Assembly: GCF_000423825.1 (NCBI RefSeq)
Contig: NZ_AUIS01000005.1
Span: forward strand, 62,001-126,000
DNA length: 64,000 nt
Reading direction: 5' to 3'
Source: Thermithiobacillus tepidarius DSM 3134
Lineage (GTDB): Bacteria > Pseudomonadota > Gammaproteobacteria > Acidithiobacillales > Thermithiobacillaceae
The notes beneath the pieces were generated by a model. The model did not search any database, had not been told where the DNA came from, and saw nothing but the letters and a program-made list of their open reading frames with translations. A program made the position numbers and the translations under genes. Every line of letters begins with the position of its first letter. The stretch's first letter is position 1. Shown one piece after another: positions 2,202 to 4,004 of this stretch.

Positions 2202-2218
2202 TTGACAAAGTTTGTCAC
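2202..2218. promoter_or_regulatory. Palindromic site 1, TTGACAA-AGT-TTGTCAC (candidate enhancer site)
   Basis: Two 7-bp half-sites separated by 3 bp; 2203-2217 is a perfect 7-1-7 inverted repeat. The same 7-3-7 design with the same half-site occurs twice upstream of the lytic transglycosylase gene (3892-3908 and 3933-3949). Its centre lies about 87 bp upstream of the start expected from the -24/-12 element at 2271-2286, a usual distance for a sigma-54 enhancer-binding protein. I cannot assign the regulator. Confidence 0.6.
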
Positions 2219-2270
2219 CCCTCGGCCGCAAGCCGCGCCATTTCTCAGCTTTTTCACCGTCCGGCAAAGT

Positions 2271-2286
2271 TGGTGTGCAACTTGCT
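2271..2286 (+). promoter_or_regulatory. Sigma-54-type -24/-12 promoter of sigma factor gene
   Basis: TGGTGTGCAACTTGCT aligns with the sigma-54 consensus TGGCACG-N4-TTGCW: GG (2272-2273) and GC (2284-2285) are exactly 10 bp apart and the -12 block TTGCT is perfect. The middle of the -24 block is off consensus. Transcription would begin near 2297. No acceptable sigma-70 promoter is visible here: TTGACA at 2202-2207 has no -10 at the right distance. Support comes mainly from the matching arrangement at 3989-4004. Confidence 0.6.
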
Positions 2287-2408
2287 TAAGGATTGGGCAA
2301 GGAGATGATCACCGCGGCGGCCACGCGCCGCCGGCGTCTTCCGCCCGGCCGGACAAGCACATCGCAGCCGCCCGGGCTGTTGAGTTTCACTTGATCAGGA
2401 TTATGCTC

Positions 2409-3314
2409 ATGGAAAGTTTGAATTACGCAGATCACGCCCCTGAAGTTTTTCACGGCGTGCCGACGCTGGATCTGGAGAGCCAGCCCTTCGCCGGCGATCA
2501 GGAGGCCGCGCCCGACACGGACGACACCCCCGTGCCCAACACCTACCTGTCGGCCGCCAAGCGCACGGTCTTTTTGAGCTGGGAGGAGGAAAAGGCCCTG
2601 GTCACACGGCTGCGCGCCGGCGACGCCCAGGCGCGTCAGCGGCTCATCGAGAGCCATCTGCCGCTGGTCATCGGCATTGCGCGCGGCTACGGCAACAAGG
2701 GGCTGCCCATGGGCGACCTGATCCAGGAGGGCAACATCGGCCTGATTCGCGGGGTCGACCGCTTCTGCCCGGAGATGGGCACCCGCTTGTCCAGCTACGC
2801 CACCTTCTGGATCCGTGAAGGCATGCAGCGTTCCCTGATCCGCTCCCGCCTGATCCGGCTGCCGGACTACTTGGCCAAGTCCCTGCACGCCCGCAAGCAG
2901 AAAAACCAAGCCCGCGCCGAGCACCCGGACACGGCTGACGCCCCCGCCGCCAAGGCCGATACCCTGGATGCCTGGTCGGATATTCAGGTTTTATCATTGG
3001 ATGCGCCCCAGAGCGACAATTCCGAGCATACCCTTCTCGACCATCTGGAGGCCGACATGGAGGCCCCCGAGTCCAGCCTGGACGAAGACCGGGTCCGCAA
3101 CGCGCTGAAGCACTGCATGAACGCCCTCAGTGCCAAGCAGCGGCAGGTGATCTCCCTGCGCTTTGGTCTGGACGACGGTGAACCCTTGACCCTGGAAGAG
3201 GTGGCCAGCCGCGTCGGCACCAGCCGCGAAGCCGTGCGGCAACTGCAGGTGCGGGCGCTGCGCTGCCTGCGCCAGGCCATGGAGGAGGAAGGCTGGTCCG
3301 GGGTGGAGGGCTGA
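2409..3314 (+). CDS. RNA polymerase sigma-70 family factor (group 2, RpoS-like)
   Basis: 301 residues from the ATG at 2409, chosen for AGGA at 2397-2400 (an in-frame ATG at 2403 is the alternative). No region 1.1. Region 1.2 contains NTYLSAAKRTVFLSWEEE; region 2 contains IESHLPLVIGIARGYGN and the core-binding/-10 segment DLIQEGNIGLIRGVDRF, then SSYATFWIREGMQRSLI; region 4 ends in a clear helix-turn-helix (LTLEEVASRVGTSREAVRQ). Region 3 looks shortened and degenerate: a charged Ala/Lys/Asp linker replaces most of the usual sigma-3 domain. Closest in kind to RpoS-like group 2 factors, but not a clean RpoS. Upstream elements suggest sigma-54 control, which would give a sigma cascade. Confidence 0.85.
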   Translation: MESLNYADHAPEVFHGVPTLDLESQPFAGDQEAAPDTDDTPVPNTYLSAAKRTVFLSWEEEKALVTRLRAGDAQARQRLIESHLPLVIGIARGYGNKGLPMGDLIQEGNIGLIRGVDRFCPEMGTRLSSYATFWIREGMQRSLIRSRLIRLPDYLAKSLHARKQKNQARAEHPDTADAPAAKADTLDAWSDIQVLSLDAPQSDNSEHTLLDHLEADMEAPESSLDEDRVRNALKHCMNALSAKQRQVISLRFGLDDGEPLTLEEVASRVGTSREAVRQLQVRALRCLRQAMEEEGWSGVEG

Positions 3315-3429
3315 GAGCCCTGCCGTCTGTCAGGACGAGGCTTGGCGGCCGGCCGGCGCGCCCCGGCGTCGGCGCACGCTGGCAATTTCAGGCAAATGGA
3401 TTATGATTTCCCCGAACGGAGGAGATGCC

Positions 3430-3831
3430 ATGTTGCCATCCACTGCCAAGCCTTATCTCATCCGCGCCATCTATGAGTGGTGCCTGGATCAGAATCACAC
3501 CCCCCATCTGCTCGTCGCCGCCGACTACCCGGGCGTCCAGGTGCCCGCCGGCTACGCCAAAGACGGCAAGATCACGCTCAACATCGCCCCGCGCGCGACC
3601 CACGGACTGGTGATGAGCAACGACTGGATCAGCTTCATGGCCCGCTTCGGGGGCAAGCCGATGAAGCTGGAAATCCCGACTGCGGCGGTAGTGGCCATTT
3701 ACGCCACGGAGACCCAGGAGGGGCTGGTCTTCGGCGAGCCGGAGGCCCCCGCGACCCCGCCCTCGCCACCGGCGCCGGAAACGACGCCCAGCACGCCGGG
3801 CAAGCGCCCCGGCCTGCGCGTGGTCAAGTAG
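3430..3831 (+). CDS. sspB: ClpXP protease specificity-enhancing factor SspB
   Basis: 133 residues; ATG at 3430 preceded by GGAGGAG. The N-terminal fold matches SspB: KPYLIRAIYEWCLDQNHTPH, then a beta-rich substrate-binding body (about residues 20-105, with NIAPRATHGL and the ISFMARFGG stretch), and a Pro-rich flexible tail ending in the short ClpX-docking peptide GLRVVK. SspB tethers ssrA-tagged and other substrates to ClpXP. In many proteobacteria it follows sspA; here it follows the sigma factor instead. ClpXP-SspB can control sigma and anti-sigma levels, so the proximity is suggestive only. Confidence 0.92.
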   Translation: MLPSTAKPYLIRAIYEWCLDQNHTPHLLVAADYPGVQVPAGYAKDGKITLNIAPRATHGLVMSNDWISFMARFGGKPMKLEIPTAAVVAIYATETQEGLVFGEPEAPATPPSPPAPETTPSTPGKRPGLRVVK

Positions 3832-3891
3832 GATTTCATCTATAATGATGTAAAATGCAGCTCCGGCCGGATGAGCCGCAAGGGCTGCGTC

Positions 3892-3908
3892 CCGACAAGA
3901 ATTGTCAC
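3892..3908. promoter_or_regulatory. Palindromic site 2 (CCGACAA-GAA-TTGTCAC)
   Basis: Imperfect 7-3-7 inverted repeat; five inner pairs (GACAA/TTGTC) are exact and the right half is identical to the right halves of the sites at 2202-2218 and 3933-3949. It lies 41 bp (centre to centre, about four helical turns) upstream of site 3, the phasing expected for two dimers bound on one face of the DNA. Confidence 0.55.
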
Positions 3909-3932
3909 CCGAATCCCGTATCGCGGGCCAGG

Positions 3933-3949
3933 GTGACAATTTTTGTCAC
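3933..3949. promoter_or_regulatory. Palindromic site 3 (GTGACAA-TTT-TTGTCAC)
   Basis: Perfect 7-3-7 inverted repeat, the best copy of the motif. Its centre is about 73 bp upstream of the start expected from the sigma-54-type promoter at 3989-4004. Fits an upstream activating sequence; a repressor operator at this distance would be less usual. A TATAAT at 3841-3846 with a poor -35 lies further upstream and could be a second, weak promoter. Confidence 0.6.
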
Positions 3950-3988
3950 ATCGCCGCCCCGCAATCAGGGAACCGCTAAGTAATTGTT

Positions 3989-4004
3989 TGGCAAGATTCT
4001 TGCT
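3989..4004 (+). promoter_or_regulatory. Sigma-54-type -24/-12 promoter of lytic transglycosylase gene
   Basis: TGGCAAGATTCTTGCT matches TGGCACG-N4-TTGCW at all positions but one (A for C in the -24 block), with GG (3990-3991) and GC (4002-4003) exactly 10 bp apart. Transcription would start near 4014, 40 bp before the ATG at 4055. Two palindromes stand at enhancer distance upstream. This is the strongest sigma-54 promoter I see in the window. Confidence 0.75.

Follow-up and report, generated by a model that had tools for sequence, protein, structure and literature searches.

In Thermithiobacillus tepidarius, a composite regulatory element, made up of a short palindrome followed by a sigma-54-type (-24/-12) promoter, stands before four genes, and its occurrence there is real and far above chance. 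Comparisons of sequence make it very likely that the palindromes are PilR sites and the GG-N10-GC motifs RpoN promoters, by which PilS-PilR and RpoN would switch together the genes for the type IV pilin PilA, a lytic transglycosylase, an exported beta-helix protein and a sigma-70-family factor, the last of these leading to a second tier of genes. In such a scheme, PilS would sense a cue, which in Pseudomonas is the depletion of the inner-membrane pilin pool, and phosphorylated PilR would bind the palindromes, 40-80 bp upstream, and open the RpoN promoters. PilR-RpoN would thus turn on pilA, the transglycosylase, which could make an opening in the murein through which the pilus machine passes, the beta-helix exported protein, which is probably carbohydrate-active, and the sigma-70-family factor, which would start the second tier. 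The first tier of putative PilR-RpoN targets is strongly supported by sequence. The second is deduced from the presence of a sigma gene, and binding by PilR, dependence on RpoN, the signal and the targets of the sigma factor are inferred.

The composite element in the window and the genome

The window, that is, the whole stretch of 64,000 nucleotides that was analysed, begins within an ABC/MCE lipid-transport operon (mlaD-like gene). The features of interest in it are the following.

2202-2218, no strand: enhancer palindrome TTGACAAAGTTTGTCAC, 5′ of the sigma gene; the 17-mer with one mismatch
2271..2285, plus strand: sigma-54-type -24/-12 promoter TGGTGTGCAACTTGC (string TGGTGTGCAACTTGCT at 2271, GG-N10-GC) of the sigma gene
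2409..3314, plus strand: sigma-70-family gene, whose product has regions 2 and 4 and belongs to a clade apart from RpoS that is present across the order
3430..3831, plus strand: sspB (ClpXP specificity-enhancing factor), between both units, with the same order in the related genus G001
3892-3908, no strand: distal enhancer palindrome CCGACAAGAATTGTCAC of the transglycosylase gene; the 17-mer with two mismatches
3933-3949, no strand: proximal enhancer palindrome GTGACAATTTTTGTCAC of the transglycosylase gene; the exact 17-mer
3989..4003, plus strand: sigma-54-type -24/-12 promoter TGGCAAGATTCTTGC (string TGGCAAGATTCTTGCT at 3989, GG-N10-GC) of the transglycosylase gene
4055..4693, plus strand: gene for a lytic transglycosylase (DUF4124 and SLT domains), 73% identical to its G001 orthologue

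The strings and coordinates that a preliminary description had given for these palindromes and promoters are correct on re-checking. It had also placed the same 17-bp palindrome at each promoter; sites are indeed present at both, but among the copies at 2202, 3892 and 3933 only the last is exact. Of the 10-base core, TGACA-N5-TGTCA, there are exact copies at 2203 and 3934, and the distal copy at 3893 starts with CGACA. The two palindromes of the transglycosylase gene are spaced 41 bp apart. Assuming that transcription starts about 12 bp past the GC, the palindrome centres lie at approximately -87 for the sigma gene and at approximately -74 and -115 for the transglycosylase gene. From the core to the TGG of the promoter, the distance is 53 bases for the sigma gene, 40 and (from the distal palindrome) 81 for the transglycosylase gene, 53 for the pilin gene and 55 for the beta-helix gene.

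GG-N10-GC with TTGC, as in RpoN promoters, is present at the tested sites. The -24 element of the sigma gene is weak (TGGTGTG vs. the consensus TGGCACG), and therefore basal or additional promoters are possible for this gene; a simple scan for sigma-70 promoters upstream of the sigma and transglycosylase genes found none. For sspB, control by the element is not known. Elsewhere in the window, TGGCAGGATTGTTGC (45126-45181, minus strand) precedes a minus-strand TlpA/thioredoxin-like gene (44970 and below); 36 bp upstream there is one TGTCA half-site and no palindrome, and the motif is thus unsupported.

The -24/-12 pattern alone (TGG-N8-TTGC) is not enriched in the window, with 16 occurrences against 12.3 expected, and therefore proves nothing by itself. 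The palindrome with up to three mismatches occurs five times against 0.94 expected, a number reached in none of 100 shuffles. Genome-wide statements rest on pattern searches, in which TGACAA-N3-TTGTCA with at most one mismatch gives six sites in 2,958,498 bases: the three in the window, C11:33917 (type IV pilin), C20:1746 (exported beta-helix protein) and C14:21107. The last has no -24/-12 motif at composite spacing and is taken as background. The composite pattern, defined as TGACA-N5-TGTCA, 36-62 bases and TGG-N8-TTGC, is found exactly four times in the 2.96-Mb genome (its reversed-pattern control, not once), before the sigma, transglycosylase, pilA and beta-helix genes. In 547 Mb of sequence simulated with a fourth-order Markov model trained on the genome's own DNA, it does not occur at all, and approximately 0.0016 would be expected per genome. 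Chance -24/-12 matches as the whole explanation are thus rejected: they account for the motif alone, not for the composite. A scan for a single half-site with a promoter was abandoned, as the matches inspected beyond the pilin and sigma sites resembled chance.

These counts bear out the earlier view that a palindrome plus a -24/-12 motif is hard to explain by chance, and the small, coherent gene set that the preliminary description had proposed to look for by a genome scan is what the four sites present. It had further predicted that the gene for an enhancer-binding protein would carry the same site, which fails for pilR, as no composite site accompanies this gene.

Conservation of the element and the sigma factor

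The one genome available from another genus of the same family (G001) shares with the window the gene order mlaD-lipoprotein-sigma-sspB-transglycosylase. Its sigma orthologue has a composite upstream (palindrome TGACACTTTTTGTCAC, promoter TGGTGCGCAAATTGC), and its transglycosylase gene has two palindromes (distal, TGACGGTTCTTGTCA; proximal, TGACATTTTTTGTCAC), again 41 bp apart, ahead of the promoter TGGCAGAGATCTTGC. Its split pilin gene has the palindrome TGACGATTTTTGTCA and the consensus promoter TGGCACGCCCCTTGC. When the window and this genome are aligned, the palindrome arms and the promoter are kept and the remaining intergenic DNA is poorly conserved. The element is thus kept at three of four target genes, which lends support to the earlier proposal that a second sigma factor and a wall-opening enzyme would be controlled jointly. 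The fourth target differs by genus. In Thermithiobacillus, it is the exported, weakly pectate-lyase-like beta-helix protein, and in G001 a GHL15 glycosyl-hydrolase-like exported protein (L165:1436-2791, minus strand). The two are not orthologues and belong to different families, yet both look carbohydrate-active; a search of solved structures with both proteins gave no match. The beta-helix gene (L003/L163; C20:1-1574, minus strand) runs off the start of its contig, which contains neither its C-terminal part nor the genes downstream of it.

By contrast with G001, the composite is found in none of the 29 genomes of the sister family f2, which looks like Acidithiobacillaceae. Orthologues of the sigma factor are present in 28 of these 29 genomes (one best match per genome), with no composite upstream and with other neighbour genes than in Thermithiobacillus. 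PilR control of the sigma factor therefore appears to be specific to the Thermithiobacillus family.

What kind of sigma factor this is can be partly read from its sequence. Pfam finds regions 2 and 4 only, and the score against the RpoS equivalog TIGR02394 is 207 bits, below the cut-off of 378.7. In a tree, the f2 orthologues and the family's own two form a clade apart from RpoS with a support of 97/97, the deep placement of which is unsure given the long branches of the outgroups. On these two grounds, an identity as RpoS is rejected. A different sigma factor encoded in the genome, C14:26880, falls among the RpoS-like proteins of relatives in the tree. A scan of the genome contigs for named relatives of the window's factor matched 54 stretches, none of which was confirmed. 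In the helix for recognition of the -10 element, the whole clade has WIRE[GA]MQR (WVREAMQR in four), as opposed to WIRQxIER in RpoS and WIRQAITR in RpoD. The residues at the changed positions are Q437 and T440 in E. coli sigma-70, and thus an altered -10 preference is likely for this clade. The clade is probably the RpoS_2 group of a 2025 survey, which is deep-branching and RpoS-like, lacks one RpoS domain and is found in nearly all Acidithiobacillia; the survey gives no regulator or function for the group and does not mention Thermithiobacillus (PMC12194929).

It can be proposed, tentatively and with slightly less than even confidence, that in this family PilS-PilR commands through RpoN a dedicated sigma factor of an Acidithiobacillia-specific clade, whose -10-reading helix implies a promoter class of its own. 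The state of the pilus would then be converted into a surface or biofilm programme in two tiers, with a pilus-linked murein-cutting enzyme among its members. The best surviving alternative, rather unlikely, is that the promoters do depend on PilR and RpoN and that there is no real second tier, perhaps because the sigma factor has few target genes, is kept in an inactive state or is produced constitutively as well. This would agree with the fact that no genes under the sigma factor were identified in this analysis, and with the f2 orthologues that have no site. Against it, both genera of the family have conserved the RpoN-type promoter and enhancer ahead of the sigma gene, and the promoter-reading region of the factor is intact and distinctive.

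Type IV pilin genes and the candidate regulator PilR

The meaning of the element is best seen outside the family. When 397 genomes from across the phylum were surveyed for a stricter form of the composite, matches outside the own genome were found in 17 genomes, all from f72, a family of another class, and the control pattern has no match anywhere. At 17 of 17 matches, the first downstream gene is a type IV pilin gene with its signature present. With a looser search, most of the further f72 matches also stand before pilin genes or are inside long reading frames, where they look like chance. The consensus of 10 own-family sites, TGACAatTTTTGTCAC, is identical to that of the 17 f72 pilin sites, TGACAattttTGTCAc. 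Because of this agreement and the position of the f72 matches, the element is, as far as comparison can tell, a pilin-type enhancer and promoter. The preliminary description had suggested the export of an envelope structure or polysaccharide; as regards the envelope structure, this can now be narrowed to the type IV pilus.

The pilin locus of Thermithiobacillus has features of its own. The pilin is split (L005:1824-2453; C11 approximately 34240-34869) into a short pilin of about 66 aa and, encoded separately after it, a 124-aa exported protein without a Pfam match. It resembles the truncated pilins of Geobacter, and the same arrangement is present in G001 (L062). A truncated pilin has been reported for T. 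tepidarius (PMC5174107). Divergent from pilA is a second pilin-like gene with a ComP_DUS match (L005:795-1304, minus strand), with a possible -24/-12 element of its own, GGGCACATGATTTGC (L005:1379-1393, minus strand). The pilA enhancers might serve both directions.

The known activator of pilin-type enhancer-promoters is PilR acting with RpoN (PMC6058289; PMC2725144; PMC6528607). The genome encodes RpoN and 11 strong enhancer-binding proteins, one of which lies in the cluster pilB-pilC-pilS-pilR-pilD, where PilS has a six-helix sensor domain. In all 15 orthologues examined (G001, five from f2 and nine from f72), PilR is flanked by PilS and PilD. The own genome, G001 and 9 of 9 f72 orthologues have ISFRSxRYR or VSFRSxRYR as its recognition helix, which has diverged in 5 of 5 from f2 (ISLQSLHLR, ISTHSLILR and others), even though overall PilR identity is higher in f2 (53-56%) than in f72 (43-47%). 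The co-variation of helix and element across families is the best evidence, though correlative, that PilR reads the palindromes. Since the element marks pilin genes and this helix goes with it, the regulator outside the window is very probably PilR. The sigma-54 enhancer-binding protein that had been postulated to lie outside the window would thus have its gene in the pil cluster. In f2 itself (L117-L121), PilR retains synteny and identity with a diverged helix, and any DNA target must differ.

It is improbable, though less so than the last alternative below, that the element is a real sigma-54 enhancer and promoter whose user is a different member of the 11 (such as the AtoC/NtrC-like proteins or the protein at C1:18311, which has no receiver domain), with PilR as only one of several activators. 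The number of such proteins encoded and the overlapping specificities of Fis-type recognition helices leave room for this. Against it stand the pilin genes that the element marks in the other genomes matched and the ISFRSxRYR helix, which PilR alone has among the 11 enhancer-binding proteins of the genome and which is lost in the family without the element. The PEP-CTERM regulator PrsR was considered and rejected, as its motif 1 is TTTACA-type rather than TGACA-N5-TGTCA (PMC1569441). Finally, that the palindromes bind a non-enhancer regulator (a repressor or a nucleoid protein) beside incidental -24/-12 matches is hardly credible: chance frequency holds for the -24/-12 pattern alone in the window, whereas the composite exceeds expectation by thousands-fold, the G001 promoter is kept while its surroundings drift and, in f72, each palindrome is followed by TGGCA-N6-TTGC immediately upstream of a pilin gene.

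Comparison with known systems and significance

Control of pilA by PilS-PilR and RpoN is known from Pseudomonas aeruginosa, Geobacter and Neisseria (Nps-Npa), and the likely PilR system of Thermithiobacillus resembles it in that the pil cluster encodes a two-component regulator and the pilin gene has an enhancer ahead of its -24/-12 promoter. PilR regulons beyond pilA, including fleSR and cell-envelope genes, are also known or predicted (PMC6058289). Unlike in those systems, genes for a sigma-70-family factor and a lytic transglycosylase have the enhancer here too, and no such targets of PilR were found in the literature compared. A search of open-access papers yielded only a Pseudomonas paper for PilR regulon with sigma factor and nothing for PilR with TGTC and pilA together.

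Cascades from RpoN to another sigma factor are known as well. In Borrelia burgdorferi, the enhancer-binding response regulator Rrp2 acts through RpoN on an RpoS-related sigma gene (PMC2940757; PMC11109971). That activator is of another family and the organism of another phylum, whereas conserved palindromes shared with pilA are present here and the sigma factor is not RpoS. In the flagellar hierarchy FleQ/FleSR-RpoN-FliA, RpoN and enhancer-binding proteins likewise act ahead of a sigma-70-family factor that serves a surface organelle (PMC6543871), although here the organelle would be the type IV pilus and the factor is not FliA. The PrsK-PrsR system has a similar repeated upstream motif with -24/-12 promoters at single-gene units, and differs in its motif and in its PEP-CTERM targets (PMC1569441). 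What is new is that two genera share a pilin-type, putatively PilR-dependent enhancer upstream of the genes for an RpoS-like sigma factor and a transglycosylase.

Dedicated murein-opening enzymes for type IV pili are poorly known, and the proposed control, if true, would name a transglycosylase tied to these pili by co-regulation. The composite would also be specific enough to mark PilR control across a whole genome. After Borrelia, the sigma factor would be another clear case of an RpoS-like sigma driven by RpoN, this time with visible enhancer sites, and a regulator would be at hand for an orphan group of sigma factors that is common to the Acidithiobacillia.
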